From Erythrobacter sp. JK5 (GTDB taxonomy: Bacteria > Pseudomonadota > Alphaproteobacteria > Sphingomonadales > Sphingomonadaceae): DNA of 64,000 nucleotides. Shown in pieces: positions 1 to 8,740 of the stretch. The notes under the pieces are model-generated. The model did no database searches and was not told where the DNA came from. It worked only from the letters and a program-made list of their open reading frames with translations. A program made the position numbers and the translations under genes. The stretch spans positions 2,232,001 through 2,296,000 of the forward strand of contig NZ_CP073577.1 of assembly GCF_018205975.1 (NCBI RefSeq), written 5' to 3'. Every line of letters starts with the position of its first letter. Position 1 is the stretch's first letter.

Positions 1-155
1 CCCACTGATTTCATATGAGTTAAGCCTGTAGTTCTGATTGGAAACTGGGAGTGACTACCGCCTTGAAAAATATCGAAGGGGATATCCTCTTCAACGGGTG
101 ATAATACTTCGATCCAATCTGCACGAGTCGCGAATATTTCAATGGATTTAGACAT
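1..155 (-). CDS. Putative immunity protein of the third Rhs cassette (partial, runs off the window)
   Basis: An open frame starts with ATG at 155 and stays open to base 1, giving 51 residues beginning MSKSIEIFATRADWIEVL. It lies 12 bases downstream of the stop of the broken Rhs toxin cassette CT1 (168). That is where the other two toxin tips in this locus carry their immunity genes. The family is not recognised and the C-terminus is outside the window. The immunity role is inferred from position only. Unlike the toxin before it, no lesion is visible in the part present. The sequence is AT-richer than the Rhs core, as is usual for tip and immunity modules. Confidence 0.5.
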   Translation of the reverse strand, partial: MSKSIEIFATRADWIEVLSPVEEDIPFDIFQGGSHSQFPIRTTGLTHMKSV

Positions 156-167
156 TACTTGTAATCT

Positions 168-1302
168 TCACTGCTTTGGCTTGGGGACAGTGAGAAGATG
201 GTCCCCCTTCGTGTTTGTACGGATATTCCCAGCATTGCGACTCTCTCGTTTGGTCAGAGTTCTTCCGTCAACAAGCGTATCGACCGTGTTGATCCGAAGC
301 GTTCTTCCATTCTTTGTCGCGGAAATATCGACAACCCCCCCCTTTCGCCCTCCGCCTGGTGGCTTGATGTATTCCTCTGGGAAACGGTTCCCTCCAGCAG
401 CTATTTCCCAACCACGTCTCTCCAGTTCGTCAGCAACATCCCCTACGTGCTTTCTAGTCGATGGTTTTCCCCAAGCGTCCGTACGGGTTTGGCGGTAGCC
501 GCCTTGGCACTGACCCTGACTGATCTCTCAATATCTCCCGGAGCAGGCGGCGACCACCCTGCTTAACCCCGATCTTGGCGAGCGCGCCAACACCGGTCAG
601 GTCGGTCAGCGCAAGTCCAGTGTGGACGAGCGCCCATCCATAGTTTCCGCACATATAAGCATCGTATGCGTCCCAGCCTGAGCCGAGCACGGGAATCCAG
701 TCGGCTGCGTCACGCTCCCATGAACGCAACCCCAACGGATCGATCCCGTTCACCGGGTCCGCATTCGCATACACATACGGGTTCACATCGCCCGCAAGCC
801 CGATCGGGTCGGCCTGGATGTACCTGCCCGTCACCGGATCGTAGTCGCGGTTGCGGTTGTAGTAGAGGTCACTCAGCACCTGGCTTTGGCCGGGGAAGCC
901 GGGGCGCAGGAAGTCGTTGCCGGGGTCGACCACCGTACCCTTGCGCGTCGGTGGTGACGATTGGCACGCCGAGGTGGTTGCCGTGCACCCAGTAGGTCTG
1001 GAGCGTCCCTTGCGCGTCGGGCGCGAGCGGGGCGTAGCCGGCGATATGGTCGCCGCCGCCGAACGGGGAGTTGTCATTCGCAGCCGGAGGCTCGGCCCAG
1101 ATGAACTCCGCCCGCACATCGCTCGCTGAAGAGCCGTATTGTCCTCGCTACGCTCGTTCAGCTGCGCTTCCCGTCACCACCCGGCCCACTCGTCATAGAC
1201 GAAGTGCCGCGTGCCGGTCGGCTTGTCGACCCGCACCCGGTCGCCCAACCCGTTGTAGGTGTAGCTCTGCGCGCCGATGCTGGTGCGGTCGTAGCTCGCC
1301 AA
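168..1302 (-). pseudogene. Displaced Rhs C-terminal toxin cassette CT1, degenerate
   Basis: The upstream part (about 727-1302) repeats the end of the Rhs core, including the GRYIQADPIGLAGD signature. The tip that follows is unrelated to the other two tips. The frame is broken at least three times. There is foreign sequence with a lost base around 1125-1190. An extra A at 937 is absent from both other copies. A further shift lies near 520-530, after which another frame is open to a TGA at 168. Read across these lesions, the tip contains TDAWGKPSTRKHVGDV and later GRKGGVVDISATKNG, a pattern I associate with nuclease-like tips but cannot name. There is no start codon of its own. It is best seen as a silent or decayed donor cassette. 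Confidence 0.75.
727..1302 (-). repeat. Rhs core-end direct repeat, copy 1
   Basis: This stretch is nearly identical to the core end of the full-length Rhs gene and to copy 2, apart from an extra A at 937 and a short replaced segment around 1125-1190. It stops matching at about 1302. It marks the 5' part of cassette CT1 and would be a target for recombination with the main gene. Confidence 0.85.
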
Positions 1303-1349
1303 AACTAGCGTCGGCTATTAGTTCGATTCGTTGTTGAGAAGCGCCTGAA

Positions 1350-1739
1350 TCAGTATTTTGCCAATTCGGCCCTCAAATCCACAGCAAGCCGTTGAGGATC
1401 TACTAAGACGCCCAAGTCACCGCTAATGGGAAATACGGCAACACTTTGGCCCTCCGTCACTAACTCGGGAGTCCATGATCGAAGCCAGTCTAAGACTGGA
1501 ATCTCCCTCGGAGTACAGTCCTTCCACGCTTCGACTGCGCATCTCTCAGCAAATGCCGAATGCGGCCAGACCGGAACCAATGGATTACCGGCAGTGTCTG
1601 TTGCGAGCACCCAACCGTCGCCCCAAAGCGAGAATAACCTTTCCTCATCGCACGTCTTCTTGACAAAGTACTCGTATCTCAAATGCCCAGCTGCAGCGAG
1701 GAGAGCTTCTTCCTCGTGCTTGCTAAGGCTCCAACTCAT
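1350..1739 (-). CDS. DUF2750-type immunity protein paired with Rhs tip CT2
   Basis: This 129-residue soluble protein matches the DUF2750 pattern as I know it: an N-terminal YEYFVKK segment, a central LWGDGWVLATD, then VPVWPHSAFAE, and a C-terminal VAVFPISGDLGVLVDP. Members are often found beside toxin genes. Its ATG overlaps the stop of the CT2 toxin by four bases (1736-1739), so the two are translationally coupled, as expected of a toxin and its cognate immunity. The inferred role is to bind and block the CT2 toxin in the cytoplasm. Direct binding is not shown by sequence. Confidence 0.75.
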   Translation of the reverse strand: MSWSLSKHEEEALLAAAGHLRYEYFVKKTCDEERLFSLWGDGWVLATDTAGNPLVPVWPHSAFAERCAVEAWKDCTPREIPVLDWLRSWTPELVTEGQSVAVFPISGDLGVLVDPQRLAVDLRAELAKY

Positions 1740-2758
1740 CTACGCCTCCGACGATCGATTCTGTGCTGAATCTTGTGCAGCTGTATATCTTGAAGATCAC
1801 TGTTATCATATCCGTATCCGCGCCTTGCTTCAAAGCCACGCTTGTGTGCGAGATTCATCCCTTGGGGGACTCTTAGCCTTCTTCTTTTCCCTCTGGCGAT
1901 TTCGTTCAGGTCCCGCCTAAGCTCTCCTCTAATCCTTGATGAGAGTTTTGGGTCGTTCACAAGCTCTCTGAGACGTGCCTGCTTTCCGGAGCGTCCAATC
2001 GTGGCTCCGCCCGTTTCATCCGCCCAAAGCTTTCGGAAGAATTGACGCCCCCCAATTTTCCCCGCTCGACGCGCAGCGCCTCTAACTGAGAAGAAGCCAG
2101 CATAGTTGTAGAAATCGTTGCAAAGATCGATATCGCGATTGGAGCCTATCCATTCGCGAACATACCAAGTCGCCCCGAAGGTGAGTCCGTCCGACCAACC
2201 CGCAATGGCATTCATCGTATTCCGGCGATAGCTGTCGGGAAGGCCGGCGTAGTACTCCCACTTGGTCATCAACCCCAACGGATCGATCCCGTTCACCGGG
2301 TCCGCATTCGCATACACATACGGGTTCACGTCGCCCGCGAGGCCAATCGGGTCTGCCTGGATGTACCGCCCCGTCACCGGGTCGTAGTCGCGGTTGCGGT
2401 TGTAGTAGAGGTCGGCGAGCACCTGCGACTGGCCCGGGAAGCCGGGGCGCAGGAAGTCGTTACCGGGGTCGACCACCGTCCCTTGCGCGTCGGTGGTGAC
2501 GAGCGGCACGCCGAGATGGTTGCCGTGGACCCAGTAGGTCTGGAGCGCCCCTTGCGCGTTCGGTGCTACCAGCGCGAGCGGGGCGTAGCCGGCGATATGG
2601 TCGCCGCCGCCGAACGGCGCGTTATCGTTGGCAGCAGGCGGCTCGGCCCAGATGAATTCGGCCCGCACATCGTTCGCCGACGCGCCGTATTCCGCCACCA
2701 CCCGGCCCCACTCGTCATAAACGAAATGCCGCGTGCCCGTCGGCTTGTCGACCCGCAC
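1736..2758 (-). CDS. Displaced Rhs core end with toxin tip CT2 (polymorphic toxin type 8-like)
   Basis: This 340-residue open frame begins at a GTG inside Rhs core sequence. Homology to the full-length Rhs gene continues upstream to about 2870, where a TAG closes the frame, so there is no genuine start, signal peptide or N-terminal half. The first half repeats the core end up to DPLGL. The tip ends with GMNLAHKRGFEARRGYGYD followed by LQDIQLHKIQHRID, which resembles polymorphic toxin type 8 domains (predicted RNases). The family name is from memory and moderately sure. Relative to the main gene, 63 bases are missing between two cgtcata repeats. It is followed by a DUF2750 immunity gene. It is probably silent unless recombined into the main Rhs gene. 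Confidence 0.7.
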   Translation of the reverse strand: MRVDKPTGTRHFVYDEWGRVVAEYGASANDVRAEFIWAEPPAANDNAPFGGGDHIAGYAPLALVAPNAQGALQTYWVHGNHLGVPLVTTDAQGTVVDPGNDFLRPGFPGQSQVLADLYYNRNRDYDPVTGRYIQADPIGLAGDVNPYVYANADPVNGIDPLGLMTKWEYYAGLPDSYRRNTMNAIAGWSDGLTFGATWYVREWIGSNRDIDLCNDFYNYAGFFSVRGAARRAGKIGGRQFFRKLWADETGGATIGRSGKQARLRELVNDPKLSSRIRGELRRDLNEIARGKRRRLRVPQGMNLAHKRGFEARRGYGYDNSDLQDIQLHKIQHRIDRRRRR

Positions 2759-2870
2759 CCGGTCGCCGAGCCCGTTGTAGGTGTAGCTCTGCGCGCCGAT
2801 CGTGCTGCGGTCGTAGCTCTCAAGCCGCCCGTGCCCGTCATAGGCGATTGCGCGAGTGCTAGCCGACTAC
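2268..2870 (-). repeat. Rhs core-end direct repeat, copy 2
   Basis: Near-identical to 3877-4523 of the main Rhs gene, but it lacks a 63-base (21-codon) segment that in the main gene lies between two cgtcata repeats. It also lacks the short Gly/Ser-rich insert at about 4215-4252. It forms the 5' part of cassette CT2. Confidence 0.85.
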
Positions 2871-2903
2871 ATTCTTGTCTGAGGGACCGCGAGGATATCG
2901 TTC

Positions 2904-3326
2904 TCACATCCCTCTTGGGACAGAGTTCAAAGCGTCCTCGTAGCTAACGGCGGACGTGAGAGTTTGGTTCAATTCTCCGACAAAATCGCTGTCATATTCT
3001 CCCCTCTGCCTTACCCGAATCGCCTGCTTAATGCATTGCTTGAACTCTTCGAGACTTAGCTTCTGTCCTCCTGCGAGAACAGGCGCAGTCTTGAACTCAA
3101 CAAGCCATTTAAGGATCGGGTTTCTGGTGGATATGATTAACTCATCAACCACATGAAATAGGAATCCTTTCGAGTCGATGAGCTTAACCTCTCCATCGCG
3201 CGCCTGCTGGCGTAGCTCTTCAAACATCGTGCGAGGAGTTCGCTCGAAATCGGCTGTCGTTTTGGCTAGGAACACATACTCCTTGCTCCAAACCAAGATC
3301 GGATACGATAATTCGCGATGGTCCAT
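2904..3326 (-). CDS. Putative immunity protein for the expressed Rhs tip
   Basis: A 140-residue protein with no signal peptide or membrane segment, starting MDHRELSYPILVWSKEYVF. It starts 15 bases after the stop of the full-length Rhs gene, the standard place for a cognate immunity gene. I do not recognise the family. It is mixed alpha/beta by eye, acidic to neutral, and AT-richer than the surrounding core. The role of protecting the producer from the nuclease-like tip of the Rhs protein is inferred from position. Confidence 0.65.
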   Translation of the reverse strand: MDHRELSYPILVWSKEYVFLAKTTADFERTPRTMFEELRQQARDGEVKLIDSKGFLFHVVDELIISTRNPILKWLVEFKTAPVLAGGQKLSLEEFKQCIKQAIRVRQRGEYDSDFVGELNQTLTSAVSYEDALNSVPRGM

Positions 3327-3341
3327 CGTTTCTTTCTCGCT

Positions 3342-6300
3342 CTAATCGCCACGGTTTGAAGCATTGATCAATACTCCTGCTCCGCTTGCGGGATAGGCAT
3401 AAACAGTAGGAGTTCTGAGTATGTGCCGCCAAGGGGCAGCGAGTGTATCAGACTTCTTAGTCCCTTTCGGATTTCTGTAGGGATCGGTCCTAGCGTGGAA
3501 TTTCGTGCTTACGTAGTTACCATTCCATCTGCTTCTTCGAAAGCTATTCGGTAATAGTTTGTCTAAGAGCGGCTTGTATTCACGGTTTATGTTTCTTCCT
3601 GATAATGTGAGTGGCCTAAAATATCGATCGGGAATAGCATGAGAGAACTCCAATCCCCTACCGGGAGCGGCACCTATTCTTCCGATGCCTCCTCCTACAG
3701 CACCAATCGCTCCACTAACCAACACACTATTCCAATCGTAGCAATCTGCATCAAAAATACTTCGACCGGTCCACCAGTTACCTGCGGCCTGGATAGCAAG
3801 ATCAGTAGCCATACCCACTGCAGCCCCGCACACTGCAGCACCCAGAGGTGTGAAGCAAACTGCAACATTCCCAGTTGGATCGATCATGTTCACCGGGTCC
3901 GCTCCGGCATACACATACGGGTTCACATCGCCCGCCAGGCCAATCGGGTCCGCCTGGATGTACCTCCCGGTCACCGGGTCGTAGTCGCGGTTGCGGTTGT
4001 AGTAGAGGTCGGCGAGCACCTGCGACTGGCCGGGGAAGCCGGGGCGCAGGAAGTCGTTGCCGGGGTCTACCACGCTGCCTTGCGCGTCGGTGGTGACGAT
4101 CGGCACGCCGAGATGGTTGCCGTGGACCCAGTAGGTCTGGAGCGCCCCTTGCGCGTTCGGTGCTACCAGCGCGAGCGGGGCGTAGCCGGCGATATGGTCG
4201 CCGCCGCCGAACGGGTTGCCTGCCCCGGACCCCGAACCGGGGTCATTCGCGGCAGGCGGCTCCGCCCAGACGAATTCGGCCCGCACATCGCTCGCCGACG
4301 CGCCATACTCCGCCACCACCCGGCCCCACTCGTCATAGACGAAGTGCCGGGTGCCGGTCGGCTTGTCGACCCGCACCCGGTCGCCCAACCCGTTGTAGGT
4401 GTAGCTCTGCGCACCGATGCTGGTGCGGTCGTAGGTTTCCAGCCGCCCGTGCCCGTCATAGCTCGCGGAGACCGTCTCGCTGCCCGGGCGAGTCTCGGAC
4501 ACGGTGTTGCCCCGGCCGTCATAGGCAATCGTGCGGGTGCCGCTGTCATCGCTGAAGCTCGCCAGCCGGTTGGTACCGGGCGTGTAGCTGTAGCTTTCCG
4601 AGGATTGTGCCGAGCCCCCCGAAACCGCCATCGTCAGCCGACCCATTTCGTCATAGCCATACAGCGCCGAGCTCGCCGGGTTGACGTAGTCGGCGATCGC
4701 CCCGATCCGACCGACCGCATCGCGGCGATAGGCGAGATGCGAGAGCTCGGCGCCGCCGCCGGTCGGGGCAAGCCGGCGCGCGGCGAGCCTGCCGTCGTCG
4801 CCCCAAACGTTCGCGACCGACAGCCCGTTGCCGAGCGCCATCGCGGTCAGCGGCCCGAACGCCTCGTACTCATGCCCGCTCGAAACCGTCACAGAGGCGC
4901 TGCTCGAATTTGCGCGCGTGCGGACTTGTGCGACCCGTCCCCAGGCGTCGTAATCGTAGAGCACCCAGCGGCCGGAGGGGTAGATGATCCGGGTGATGCG
5001 GTCGGCAGTGTCGTAGGAATACGACAGGCGGGCATTGGAATCGGTGCCAATCGCCTGCTCCCGGATCAGCAGGTTGCCGCGATGGTCGTATTTGAAGCGG
5101 GTGAGGCCGGAACCGTCGGTGACCCTCCCGACCCGGCCGATGCCATAGGAGTCGCCGAGCCCGCCGCCGTCCCACTGATAGTCGATCGCTTCAGAGGCAG
5201 GGCGGCCGAGCGGTTCGATCCGGGTGACGCGGCCGAGGATGTCGTGGGTGTAGGCCAGCACCTGTCCGCGCCCGTCGGTCGACTGCACCATCCGCCCGGC
5301 GGCGTCGTACACATAGGTGCTGGTGCCGCGATCGGGCGAGGTCTCTTCGATCGCCTCGCCGAAGCCGTTGTGGACGAACCGGGTGGTGACCGAGACCGGG
5401 TCGGTAAAGCTGGCGGGGTTCCCCTGCGCATCGTAGCTCGAGCCTAGGGTGCCACCATCGGGCGCGACCGATGCGACCACGCGGTCGAGCGCGTCGAAAG
5501 ACGCGGCGGTGGTAAAGCCGTTGGGGTCGGTTACGCTGGTGAGGTTGTCGACCTTGTCGTAGCCGAACCGCGCGGGAGAGCGGGTGCCGAGTGTCTCACG
5601 CAGCAGGCGGCCAAGCTGGTCGAACTGGCGGCGCACATGGCGCGCGGTCGTGCCATCGGCGCGCTTCACGGTCTCGCGCTCGACATTGCCGGCGAGATCG
5701 TAAGTATATTCCCAGCGTTCGCCGCTCGCCGCGCTCATGGCCGTCATGCGGCTCGCAGCGTCGTATTCCATCAGCAGCGGAGCGGTGCCGGGCAGCGTCA
5801 GCTGGATGAGGTTGCCGACCGCGTCATAGGCCATCGCGGTGGTGGCATCGAGCGAGGGATCGCCCGGATCCCTGACCGTGATTGCCTCGACCCGCCCGAG
5901 CTGGTCGTAGGCGATGGTCGTCACGATGCCGTTGGGATCGGTGATCGAAGCCGGGCGGCCGTTGGCGTCGTGCCCGGCATAGCTGGTCACATGGCCGAGC
6001 GCGTTTGTGGCGGCGAGGAGGTTGCCACCCGCATCATAGGTATAGCTGGTGAGATCATCCTCGCTGCCGTTCGCGGGAAGCGGGCCGTTCTCCGAAAGCA
6101 GGCGGCCGTTGGCATCCCAGCTGTAGGTGTAGGTGCGGGTCTGGCCATTCGTCGGATAGGGCAGCGCGTGGCCGGTGGTGTCGGTCAGCGTGACCGAGGT
6201 CAGCCGGCCCTGCGCGTCGTATCCGCGGGTTTCGGTCAGCCCGGGCCCGACGATCGAGACGGGCACGTTGAAATCTGCATGCCAGGTGATCGTCGTCGTG

Positions 6301-8114
6301 CGCGCCTCCGGCGTGCCGCTCGCCTCGGTGATGCTGACCGGCCGTCCGCGCGCATCGCGCGTGGTGGTGATCAACCGCCCCTCGGCGTCGGTCGCGCTCG
6401 AAATATAGGTGTTTCCGCCATAGGCGATCGTGGCGGTGGTCGCGGGCGTGTCGGCGGTGGCGTCCCCAGCCACCGAAGTCAGCCGGTAATCGCGCTGGCT
6501 CGCCGAAAATTCCGAGAAAGTGTAGAGTTCCCGCTTGCCGTATTCGTTGGTGACCGCGCGCGTGCGCGCCGAACCGGCGGAGCCGTAGACAAAGCTGTTG
6601 CGCTCGGCCCCGTCGGCAAGCTCGCTCGAAATGACCCGCCCGGCGGTGTCATAGGAATAGGTCGACACCGGCTCGCCGCGGTGGTCGACGATCCCGGTGA
6701 CGTTGCGGGCGTAGACGGCGTTCTCGTGCAGATAGGTGACCGAATCGAGCACCGCATCGTTCGCGGCGCGACGCTCGACTTTGGTGAGGCGCTGGATTTC
6801 GGGGAGCAGCACGGCATTCACCACCAGTACCGTTCCCGGCTTGCCCCCGCCGCCCCACGTCCTGCGCCACTTAGGTCCGCCGAAAGCAATGCCGATCCCG
6901 GGAGCGGTCGCGTCTTCGTAATCGTATTCGAGCGAGCTCCCGTCGGGCAGATCGATGGTGCGAACCCGCACCGGAACCGGTTCGCTGCCCGCCGGGGCTG
7001 GTTCGATCGTTGTGATGCGGTGCCTGTCCCAGGTGAAGCTCGCGCTGCGCCCGAAACTGTCGGTCATCGTCGCGAGGGCGCCATCGGCACCGTAAGTGGA
7101 GCTTTGCCAGTAGCCGCTGCGGGTCTCCATCGCGACCGGCCAGCCGAACAGATACGAGCCGCCATTGGGCCCGATGCGGGTCTGGATCGTCCAGACCGTG
7201 TCGTTGCGGTCGGTCAGTTTCCAGGTGGTTTGCACGTCGCGCAGCGTCGCGAGATCGGGCGGCAGCGCGTCGAGCAGTTCGAGCTTGAGATTGTTCGATG
7301 CGTTGCCACCGCCTGCATCCGGGTGTTCGATCCATGTCCCGTCGGGTTGCAGAACGAACCCGTAGCCGGTCCCGTCGGGCATCAGGATCGCGACCGTGGC
7401 GTTCGGTTCGGCCGGCGACCCGGTGACGATGCCGAACTGCAATTCGTGATTGAAATCGAAATTCCAGTATCCGTCGAGTCCGCGCGGGAGATCGCGCGGC
7501 AGCACGCGCTGCTGGATCGGTCGCCCGACCTGGAAACTGCGATATTGACGAGCGATCCGGAACAACCCGTCGGCGGAAGAATAATCGAGCGCACTCAGGC
7601 GTTTGGCCCCCGTCGCCAGCACCACCGGGTTGCGAGTCTTGGGATTGGCGCGCCCGTCATCCTCGCCGCATGGATCGCTGCATGGGCGCTCGTAGGCCCC
7701 GTTGAGCGTGCATCGCCCGTCGGGCGTCGCGAGGTAGTCTTCCGGGCAAGCGATCTGGACGTAGCTCGGGATTTTGACTCCGCAGCTGAAACCGGCACCG
7801 GTCTCTTCGGGGCAAAGGTACTGGTAGCGGGTCCATTCGCAGTGGATGAAGCGCAGATCGTCGGACTTGCGCTTGATGCCCATGAACCGCGAATGGCCGT
7901 TGTCCATCCCCTGGTCCCGCCACTGCGCCTTGCAGGCCTGCGTTGGAGTTTCGAACACGCCGCCCGGTCCGGACTGCGAGATCCAGCCCAGCGGCTCGGC
8001 ATCCTCGGGCTGCTGCGCGCGCAGCTGTGTGCCGAGCACCAGCGTGAAACAGGCGAGGAGGAACCCGATTGTCCGCAGCGAAAGTCTCAACCCGTTTCCC
8101 CCGCGTTCGAACAC
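3342..8114 (-). CDS. Full-length secreted Rhs/YD-repeat polymorphic toxin
   Basis: 1590 residues. A Sec signal peptide occupies residues 1-33 (hydrophobic stretch TIGFLLACFTLVLG, likely cleavage after LRA). A Cys-rich region follows, then a DUF6531-like start of the Rhs shell (NPVVLATG at 162-169). Many YD repeats fill about 350-1330, and the core-ending signature GRYIQADPIGL lies near 1383. The variable tip is about 1416-1590 and contains SHAIPDRYF (1491), WNGNYV (1530) and HARTDPYR (1540). This His/Asn/Asp pattern is seen in a widespread group of Rhs tips and looks HNH-nuclease-like. There is no PAAR domain, so T6SS loading by a fused PAAR is unlikely. The gene lies 16 bases after the small YD protein gene and 15 bases before its immunity gene. 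Confidence 0.9.
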   Translation of the reverse strand: MFERGGNGLRLSLRTIGFLLACFTLVLGTQLRAQQPEDAEPLGWISQSGPGGVFETPTQACKAQWRDQGMDNGHSRFMGIKRKSDDLRFIHCEWTRYQYLCPEETGAGFSCGVKIPSYVQIACPEDYLATPDGRCTLNGAYERPCSDPCGEDDGRANPKTRNPVVLATGAKRLSALDYSSADGLFRIARQYRSFQVGRPIQQRVLPRDLPRGLDGYWNFDFNHELQFGIVTGSPAEPNATVAILMPDGTGYGFVLQPDGTWIEHPDAGGGNASNNLKLELLDALPPDLATLRDVQTTWKLTDRNDTVWTIQTRIGPNGGSYLFGWPVAMETRSGYWQSSTYGADGALATMTDSFGRSASFTWDRHRITTIEPAPAGSEPVPVRVRTIDLPDGSSLEYDYEDATAPGIGIAFGGPKWRRTWGGGGKPGTVLVVNAVLLPEIQRLTKVERRAANDAVLDSVTYLHENAVYARNVTGIVDHRGEPVSTYSYDTAGRVISSELADGAERNSFVYGSAGSARTRAVTNEYGKRELYTFSEFSASQRDYRLTSVAGDATADTPATTATIAYGGNTYISSATDAEGRLITTTRDARGRPVSITEASGTPEARTTTITWHADFNVPVSIVGPGLTETRGYDAQGRLTSVTLTDTTGHALPYPTNGQTRTYTYSWDANGRLLSENGPLPANGSEDDLTSYTYDAGGNLLAATNALGHVTSYAGHDANGRPASITDPNGIVTTIAYDQLGRVEAITVRDPGDPSLDATTAMAYDAVGNLIQLTLPGTAPLLMEYDAASRMTAMSAASGERWEYTYDLAGNVERETVKRADGTTARHVRRQFDQLGRLLRETLGTRSPARFGYDKVDNLTSVTDPNGFTTAASFDALDRVVASVAPDGGTLGSSYDAQGNPASFTDPVSVTTRFVHNGFGEAIEETSPDRGTSTYVYDAAGRMVQSTDGRGQVLAYTHDILGRVTRIEPLGRPASEAIDYQWDGGGLGDSYGIGRVGRVTDGSGLTRFKYDHRGNLLIREQAIGTDSNARLSYSYDTADRITRIIYPSGRWVLYDYDAWGRVAQVRTRANSSSASVTVSSGHEYEAFGPLTAMALGNGLSVANVWGDDGRLAARRLAPTGGGAELSHLAYRRDAVGRIGAIADYVNPASSALYGYDEMGRLTMAVSGGSAQSSESYSYTPGTNRLASFSDDSGTRTIAYDGRGNTVSETRPGSETVSASYDGHGRLETYDRTSIGAQSYTYNGLGDRVRVDKPTGTRHFVYDEWGRVVAEYGASASDVRAEFVWAEPPAANDPGSGSGAGNPFGGGDHIAGYAPLALVAPNAQGALQTYWVHGNHLGVPIVTTDAQGSVVDPGNDFLRPGFPGQSQVLADLYYNRNRDYDPVTGRYIQADPIGLAGDVNPYVYAGADPVNMIDPTGNVAVCFTPLGAAVCGAAVGMATDLAIQAAGNWWTGRSIFDADCYDWNSVLVSGAIGAVGGGIGRIGAAPGRGLEFSHAIPDRYFRPLTLSGRNINREYKPLLDKLLPNSFRRSRWNGNYVSTKFHARTDPYRNPKGTKKSDTLAAPWRHILRTPTVYAYPASGAGVLINASNRGD
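3877..4523 (-). repeat. Rhs core-end direct repeat, copy 3 (inside the full-length gene)
   Basis: The segment of the expressed Rhs gene that is duplicated in front of both displaced tips. It ends exactly where the variable tip begins (about 3870). A crossover here would swap the tip while keeping the Rhs shell in frame. Confidence 0.85.
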
Positions 8115-8130: not shown

Positions 8131-8451
8131 TCACACGCCCCAGATGGCGCAACCGAATGTTGCCGATCCCCACACCATGCCGCCGGAGATCACGCTCGCA
8201 GTTGAACTCGCGATCCGGTTGCCGTTGCGATCGTAGGTGTATTGGAAGCAGCCGCTGCCTGCGGGCAGCGAGGCCAGCAATGTTGCACCGGCCTGCGGGC
8301 CGATCGCCAGCCACGCCGCAGTCTGGGCCGGAACCGGGAAACTGGCGGCAGCGAGCGCCGCGATCACGCTGACCGTCAGGCGGTCGCCCAACGGCCGCCG
8401 TTTCCCGCGCGTGGTTCCCGACAAATTATGCGTGTTTCGACCCTGCATCAT
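8131..8451 (-). CDS. Small secreted YD-motif protein upstream of the Rhs gene
   Basis: About 106 residues from an ATG at 8451 with an AGGGG upstream. The N-terminus is basic, followed by a hydrophobic stretch (LTVSVIAALAAASFPVPAQ) that looks like a signal peptide. The mature part contains FQYTYDRNGNRIAS, a single YD-type repeat, and ends in a Gly/Trp-rich tail. It sits 16 bases upstream of the Rhs start in the same orientation, so the two are probably co-transcribed. No function is known to me. It could be a decayed N-terminal piece of an older Rhs gene or a small partner of the big protein. Confidence 0.55.
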   Translation of the reverse strand: MMQGRNTHNLSGTTRGKRRPLGDRLTVSVIAALAAASFPVPAQTAAWLAIGPQAGATLLASLPAGSGCFQYTYDRNGNRIASSTASVISGGMVWGSATFGCAIWGV

Positions 8452-8740
8452 TGCATCTACCCCTGCAACCAAAAGACACGAGCCACAGCACCGTTTCTCA
8501 AGAACAGGTCTTCGTCAAGGCGGGTGAGTAAAGAACACGTAGACACGATTACTTGAAATCCCGCAGTTCCGCGCTTCGCAGAGTTCAAGGCTACAGAAAA
8601 TAGTAAGGCATTAAAACTGGCGTCCGGATGCTCGGCAGCGTCGATCGCCGCCGGATGCGGAGCGGGGAAGGGTTGCGGTGCAGCGGCGCCGACGCGTCCA
8701 ACCATTTGGCGCAGCGCGCCTCGCCCGCTAGGCAGGCGGG

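Follow-up and report, generated by a model that had tools for sequence, protein, structure and literature searches.

An Rhs toxin gene with an array of displaced tip cassettes beside a VirB-type type IV secretion system in Erythrobacter sp. JK5

A stretch of 64,000 nucleotides from Erythrobacter sp. JK5 (contig NZ_CP073577.1, positions 2,232,001 to 2,296,000; hereafter the window) begins with an Rhs toxin locus, in which a full-length gene is followed by displaced copies of its 3′ end joined to other toxin tips and other small genes. Past the left edge of the window lies a VirB-type type IV secretion system (T4SS). The array genes in the window are all on the minus strand, with the complete rhs first in the order of transcription and the displaced cassettes 3′ of it. 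The complete gene (3342–8114) is an open frame of 1590 amino acids (aa) comprising a predicted signal peptide, RHS repeats (PF05593, 1.4e-74 in a Pfam search), an Rhs-associated core (TIGR03696, 8.7e-18) and a tip, CT1. Its N-terminus is hydrophobic with an A-x-A signal-peptidase site by a heuristic rule, and no PAAR domain was present among its Pfam matches up to E 1. The main copy of the core end (3870–4523, with the last 143 core codons at 3870–4298) leads into CT1 (3342–3866, 174 aa), which holds the expressed position. CT1 is followed by IM1 (2904–3326, 140 aa), its predicted immunity gene by position and by a guanine-plus-cytosine (GC) content of 49%, equal to that of CT1. Searches of IM1 against Pfam and TIGR profiles gave nothing above the curated cut-offs, and a promoter and terminator scan of the locus gave signals not above chance.

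Core-end matches in the whole genome, a single contig, number five, and all of them lie inside the array. Two orphan cassettes are in the window, and one more with a remnant lies past its left edge, giving three spare tips, one of which is broken. Displaced core end 2 (2273–2843) has 92% DNA identity to the main copy (2273–2680 compared) and is open together with its tip CT2 (1736–2272, GC 53%; open reading frame 1736–2758), which contains an Ntox8 toxin domain (PF15545, 1.7e-28). The stop of CT2 and the start of the predicted immunity gene IM2 (1350–1739), which encodes a DUF2750 protein (PF11042, 7.1e-26), overlap by four bases (ATGA). Displaced core end 3 (730–1294; 88% DNA identity, 730–1141 compared) is broken by an internal stop, an insert and indels, and its tip CT3 (171–729) is broken into two frames, of which the piece at 171–470 is homologous to the tip of a full-length gene in a related genome, G001. 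The predicted immunity gene IM3 has only its start in the window (1–155), with a further 249 bases outside it (L007 9751–10155), and a 38% homologue stands behind the same full-length gene in G001. At about G000:C1:2229991–2231563 (G000 being the JK5 genome), outside the window, are core end 4 (92% aa identity to the main copy over 143 residues), an open tip CT4 and a gene for a TPR protein, followed by a 74-bp core remnant (core 5). The core-end copies are regarded as real repeats because 400–570 bases at 88–92% identity are beyond chance; DNA identities of core ends refer to the last 143 codons or so, with gap columns excluded. The orphan cassettes have no start and no export signal of their own. 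The insert in core copy 3, of about 30 bp (window about 1141–1171), resembles a small mobile repeat.

An earlier note on this DNA had described three core-end copies, each with a tip and a following gene of its own, and both statements were borne out on the minus strand and by the open frames. It had given the complete gene to the first copy, which is correct in transcription order; in plus-strand coordinates the complete gene has the third copy. Its two displaced cassettes are present, but only that of copy 2 is open, as the copy that it placed at 727–1302 is disrupted along with its tip. Predicted immunity genes do follow the tips, the third being cut by the window edge, and the array that it called three-deep is there and actually longer, with the fourth core end, its open tip, the TPR gene and the remnant.

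The core copies have a GC content of 66.7–68.1% and the remainder of the window (9000–64000) one of 66.8%, whereas the tips and immunity genes range from 42 to 57%. This difference suggests that the tips are likely imports into a resident core. The pairing of CT2 and IM2 recurs elsewhere. On a plasmid of Enterobacter hormaechei, an Rhs protein of some 1370 codons has an Ntox8-type tip at its end and is followed by DUF2750, and on an Anoxybacillus plasmid a protein labeled polymorphic toxin type 8 in its record is likewise followed by DUF2750; the plasmid search with core 2 and CT2 gave 1052 records, one of them with at least 80% query coverage. The recurrent neighborhood and the four-base overlap support IM2 as the putative immunity protein of CT2, for which no PDB relative was found. 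CT1 had no Pfam match and no meaningful PDB relative, its pre-toxin part had a marginal PADLOC match (PDC-M09B, 3.2e-4), and its AlphaFold model had a mean pLDDT of 29.5. A pattern S-H ... N-G-N ... H, common to CT1 and two relatives, may point to a nuclease. In the protein database, CT1 matched its own gene, an Rhs protein of 1584 aa from a metagenome contig with a 70% identical tip, and a third Rhs protein of 1530 aa with 42% identity over 65% of the tip.

Relatives were taken from a collection with one genome per species, divided into a genus set of 114 genomes and a family set of 397 genomes that includes part of the genus. CT1 was found in the family set in its own gene and in four weak or partial matches. 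A whole-protein search of the genus set found the same Rhs lineage in G104, G046, G045, G001 and G062 (on two contigs), and in part in G079 (a piece at a contig end) and G080 (an orphan only). The main genes with a readable 3′ end, in G000, G104, G046, G045, G001 and G062, carry six different tips (n = 6), and at E 1e-4 the only likeness among these is in the pre-toxin part of G104 and G001. Downstream core copies or remnants are present in G000, G104, G046, G001 and G062, and none in G045. The full-length gene of G001 carries a tip of the CT3 type (CT3b, 66% aa identity) followed by the IM3 homologue, so that a tip orphaned in JK5 sits on a full-length rhs in a relative; neither CT3b nor CT4 matched a Pfam family. 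The next cassette in G001 is CT2/IM2 with a broken CT2, and the pair is thus orphan in both genomes. Beyond these two genomes, the family set gave CT2 matches only in G417, as a frame of 201 aa, and in G319, where the match was weak. By eye, the orphan of G046 has a CT1-like tip; alignment tools gave nothing at E 1e-4.

Comparison of the core ends points to exchange within genomes. The main core end of G000 has 88–92% DNA identity to its own three orphans, 81% to the main gene of G104 and 76% to that of G001, and the main core end of G001 has 91–93% identity to its own two orphans. The core ends thus group by genome although CT2/IM2 is common to G000 and G001. Synonymous divergence (dS) between G000 and G001 is 1.38 for CT2, 1.45 for IM2 and 1.48 for main-core codons 650–1100. 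Since the values for CT2 and IM2 are like that of the main core, the cassette probably goes back to the split between the two genomes; alternatively, the same cassette may have been captured repeatedly and independently. Core ends within each genome differ by a dS of 0.20–0.27 (two pairs each in G000 and G001), and the core end linked to CT2 has a dS of 0.20 against its own main gene, compared with 0.71 against the CT2-linked core of the other genome. An old cassette whose core end stays close to its own main gene is what concerted evolution would produce. In G000, uninterrupted identity between main and orphan core ends extends to at most 114 bp. The main gene and orphan of G046 share 846 bp with one mismatch (99.9%), a near-identity that, as far as sequence can tell, shows a very recent copying event. 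The pN/pS ratio is 0.25 for CT2 and 0.22 for IM2 over a dS of 1.4, values that are also compatible with selection in an earlier expressed state.

To the left of the array in G000 are, in order, a gene for a predicted secreted protein, a VirB2/TrbC pilin gene on the Rhs strand, and the genes for VirB11, VirB10, VirB9, VirB8, VirB6, VirB4 and VirB3 on the other strand, all of the T4SS genes being outside the window. A search for VirB2, 3, 4, 6, 8, 9, 10 and 11 found all eight in G000. The VirB2 gene is often on the Rhs side of the T4SS. In G001, VirB2 alone (L041 6269–6625) stands beside the Rhs array, and in G046 VirB2 and short pieces of VirB3 and VirB4 (L039 10604–11483) do so; these remnants look as if a once-adjacent T4SS had been lost.

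The association was examined across genomes through a clade of VirB10 proteins with at least 57% identity, distant VirB10 proteins having mostly 36–49%. Of the 114 genus genomes, 21 carry this clade, at 25 loci in total, and 110 have a VirB10 match of either kind. TIGR03696 was found in 28 of the 114 genomes; 19 of the 21 clade carriers have it, against 9 of the 93 genomes without the clade (Fisher test, 5.9e-13, with genomes treated as independent and ancestry ignored). An Rhs match lay within 20 kb at 19 of the 25 clade loci, and 33 of the 48 Rhs matches in carriers were that near. Among the matches listed, no distant VirB10 locus had Rhs within 20 kb (0 of 125, from 107 and 18); one of the 18 added loci was in a genome with Rhs, on another contig. 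Six clade loci had no Rhs match at this distance (G098:C6, G034, G062, G101, G011 and G038). The contig G098:C6 ends in Rhs sequence on both sides by reading, the Rhs of G034 is 28 kb away, and the G062 locus is a 3-kb contig. Outside the genus, 33 family genomes were carriers, with 36 loci in all, by matches at E 1e-70 (47–67% identity), and Rhs was present in 23 of the 33 carriers and in 7 of 47 non-carriers, these being the first 47 by handle (Fisher test on the same terms, 1.1e-6). Rhs was within 20 kb at 21 of these 36 loci, and 44 of the 86 Rhs matches in carriers were that near. The T4SS clade spans 24 genera of one alphaproteobacterial family, and in many genera Rhs is on either or both sides of it.

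Features of these loci are consistent with export in two steps. A heuristic signal-peptide rule (best start within 160 codons, hydrophobicity 1.85, A-x-A-like site) was passed by 19 of 20 full-length Rhs proteins, compared to 1 of 57 VirB4 and 0 of 63 VirB11 proteins; at a looser cut of 1.6 with the site, 12 of the 57 VirB4 proteins passed. The 20 Rhs proteins are those at such T4SS loci or in this lineage, and include two pairs from one genome each. The coupling protein VirD4 (PF02534) was matched in 13 of the 21 genus carriers, strongly (E < 1e-30) in six, each strong match being on a different contig or at least 90 kb away. At 24 of the 25 genus loci there was no PF02534 match within 20 kb (some contigs are shorter), and at the remaining one, in G061, a weak match lay at 13 kb. 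The relaxase search, limited to family PF03432, found none in G000; of the 61 loci, only that of G151 had one nearby (at 16 kb), several contigs being shorter than the 20 kb examined. VipB of the type VI secretion system (T6SS) was absent in 19 of 23 genomes tested, a sample formed by the 21 T4SS carriers, G079 and G080, and the 19 include G001, G046 and G080 with this Rhs lineage.

On balance, we lean slightly toward the reading that the displaced cassettes exchange with the main gene through core-end recombination and that the product leaves the cell through the neighboring T4SS. Tips would be exchanged, or displaced by incoming tips, through homologous recombination in the repeated core ends, and old immunity genes would be retained as protection against kin still using the old tip. 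The Rhs protein would reach the periplasm by the general secretory (Sec) pathway and then pass through a VirB machine that has no adjacent VirD4, as pertussis toxin does by Ptl. This export step is proposed from gene neighborhood and signal peptides, and the toxicity of the tips and their neutralization by the neighboring genes are predicted, for CT2/IM2 by analogy. The broader claim, that the VirB clade lacking an adjacent VirD4 is a dedicated exporter of Sec-delivered Rhs toxins with tips renewed from an array kept usable by core-end gene conversion, is tentative and falls a little short of an even chance. Several observations weigh against these readings. CT3 is broken in JK5, CT2 is broken in G001 and core 5 is a mere remnant, and CT2 was found on no full-length gene in the 397 family genomes or, in a separate search, at the loci of other relatives. 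The main core ends of G000 and G001 differ by a dS of 0.82, below the 1.48 of the rest of the core, and the likeness within genomes may therefore be due in part to constraint or to exchange between species. The complete T4SS of G001 and that of G046 lie apart from the array of this lineage, at another place in the genome. No Rhs match was within 20 kb at the G101, G011 and G038 loci or at 15 of the 36 family loci, the ten Rhs ends of G368 are all at least 1.4 Mb from its T4SS, and G136 has eight Rhs ends, with a row of core ends at G136:C1:2020643–2029508, and does not have this T4SS clade, a counter-example to a strict link. In G000 a pair of divergent VirD4-like matches lies some 0.8 Mb off, VipB is present in four of the 23 genomes tested (G000, G045, G079 and G104), and the disregard of ancestry in the Fisher tests tells in the same direction.

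Part of this evidence would also suit an array of debris, in which each horizontally acquired tip pushed the old tip downstream to decay, leaving only the immunity genes useful. The broken CT3 and CT2, the 74-bp remnant, the foreign GC of the tips, and orphans that have neither a start nor a signal peptide all fit that account. We consider it doubtful, as CT2 and CT4 have open frames, CT3, though an orphan in JK5, is in use in G001, and the core ends look homogenized; the low pN/pS of CT2 and IM2 also speaks against decay, unless the selection dates from an earlier expressed state. The earlier note had named a fixed cassette order without tip exchange, together with uniformly decayed displaced tips, as the sign of debris; CT3 has a different position in G001, and CT2 and CT4 are open in JK5. 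Its proposal of a recombinational tip swap gains from CT3b on a full-length gene, the grouping of core ends by genome and the copying event in G046, and loses from the broken tips, the remnants and the search that it had suggested for CT2 joined to a full-length gene, which found none. Its switchable store holds to the extent that tips are not fixed by position; decay is present and the store is not a clean one. The array is best read as a product of live recombination plus decay.

For the export part of the preferred reading, the T4SS and Rhs may instead merely share variable genomic islands, with Rhs exported by Sec and an outer-membrane route or by a T6SS. The family T4SS loci with no Rhs nearby, the T6SS in G000 and recombinase-like reading frames near two loci (L060 and L089) agree with this possibility, which we would sooner bet against. 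Shared islands sit poorly with the absence of Rhs near the common VirB10 loci, with its position relative to the T4SS, which in many genera is on one flank, the other or both, and with the VirB2 gene or VirB pieces kept with the array in G001 and G046. A T6SS route is at odds with the genomes that have no VipB and with a signal peptide in place of PAAR. The VirB genes are homologous to those of conjugation machines, and an ordinary conjugation system with Rhs as its cargo could also be imagined. The relaxase and VirD4 searches at the loci left conjugation as a role of this T4SS unsupported, the few matches being the PF03432 match in G151 and the weak PF02534 match in G061 within the limits given above, and we judge it very improbable.

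As the earlier note had stated, displaced Rhs tips are known in other bacteria. In Salmonella and other Enterobacteriaceae, orphan rhs-CT/rhsI arrays consist of a full-length main gene and downstream core-end, tip and immunity fragments without a start or export signal, and orphan tips are found on full-length genes elsewhere, for which recombination in 522 bp of core was proposed and supported (PMC3967940). The present array likewise has a main rhs, complete with tip and downstream gene, followed by orphan fragments with core end, tip and small gene. It differs in that the alphaproteobacterial Rhs has a predicted signal peptide, the array is longer, a T4SS adjoins it and most of the genomes tested have no T6SS, and exchange is read here from one genome per species. 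The Bordetella Ptl system operates without VirD4 and VirB5, and the general secretory pathway carries its substrate across the inner membrane before the T4SS takes over (PMC12857230, PMC3297438). The present loci share with Ptl a VirB-type machine with no adjacent VirD4 and a candidate substrate with a signal peptide encoded alongside, but here the candidate, an Rhs toxin with predicted immunity genes, is polymorphic and probably interbacterial, and VirB2 is often on the Rhs side. The signal peptide, RHS shell and neighboring cassettes also recall the polymorphic toxins with RHS repeats exported by Sec and the type II secretion system (PMC3482391). The N-terminal PAAR domain of T6SS-delivered Rhs proteins had no match here, where a signal peptide is predicted instead.

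In Sphingobium chlorophenolicum, also a sphingomonad, a T4SS near a polymorphic toxin module similar to contact-dependent inhibition (CDI) and Rhs toxins was noted in a single sentence in 2022, with T4SS among the possible routes; that case concerns one genome and, in the excerpted text, comes without a systematic link or an argument from Sec signals or a missing VirD4 (PMC9111745). A T4SS of Rickettsiales was also said to be one that cannot be ruled out for such toxins (PMC11077975). With these two remarks, a T4SS route for Rhs is best called only hinted at, not wholly undescribed. The main text of a 2025 T4SS review, in the part consulted, does not mention Rhs, and within the excerpts retrieved on Rhs/YD-repeat proteins and type IV secretion no proposal of two-step Rhs export by a T4SS lacking VirD4 was found. 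A literature search on Rhs and type IV secretion in sphingomonads or Erythrobacter gave no papers. In the antibacterial T4SS of the Xanthomonas type, toxins are paired with immunity proteins, and VirD4 recruits cytoplasmic effectors through their C-terminal domain. The loci described here resemble that system in predicted toxin-immunity pairs and a predicted use against bacteria, and differ from it in the presence of signal peptides and in having no VirD4 beside the cluster. Orphan arrays are thus known from Salmonella, and what is new at the level of gene content is their neighborhood with a VirB-type T4SS that has neither a coupling protein nor a relaxase next to it. A functional link would add a two-step T4SS route for interbacterial toxins, provide a relative of Ptl-like machines for study in Erythrobacter, and offer arrays suited to measuring tip exchange, such as that of G046.

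Several smaller observations concern neighboring genes. The predicted secreted protein next to the pilin gene (L007 6930–7874; G000:C1:2228930–2229874) has a conserved part of about 140 residues at its start and a variable remainder. It is found in 7 of the 114 genus genomes, the carriers of this Rhs lineage except G079, and has 266 database relatives, many of which, among the 120 matches listed, cover the first third only. It may be another modular component for the cell surface or for delivery. A second locus of G104 (L051, G104:C1:898001–918000) has VirB10, VirB2 and Rhs and none of the other VirB genes sought, and is perhaps a decayed module. Ten Rhs core ends surround one T4SS at G210:C1:2285342–2319231 (part of it in L075). 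The recombinase-like reading frames mentioned above are at L060 12128–13942 and L089 17987–19657, and we take their N-termini to resemble those of large serine recombinases. Upstream of rhs in the window, a gene (8131–8472, minus strand) encodes a small protein that has a single YD motif, is predicted to be secreted and has homologues upstream of rhs in relatives. Similar proteins are encoded directly upstream of Rhs at L038, L046, L059–L062, L075 and L076. A regular-expression search of 35 loci found small YD-motif reading frames at 10, among them L045, where the position is not upstream.

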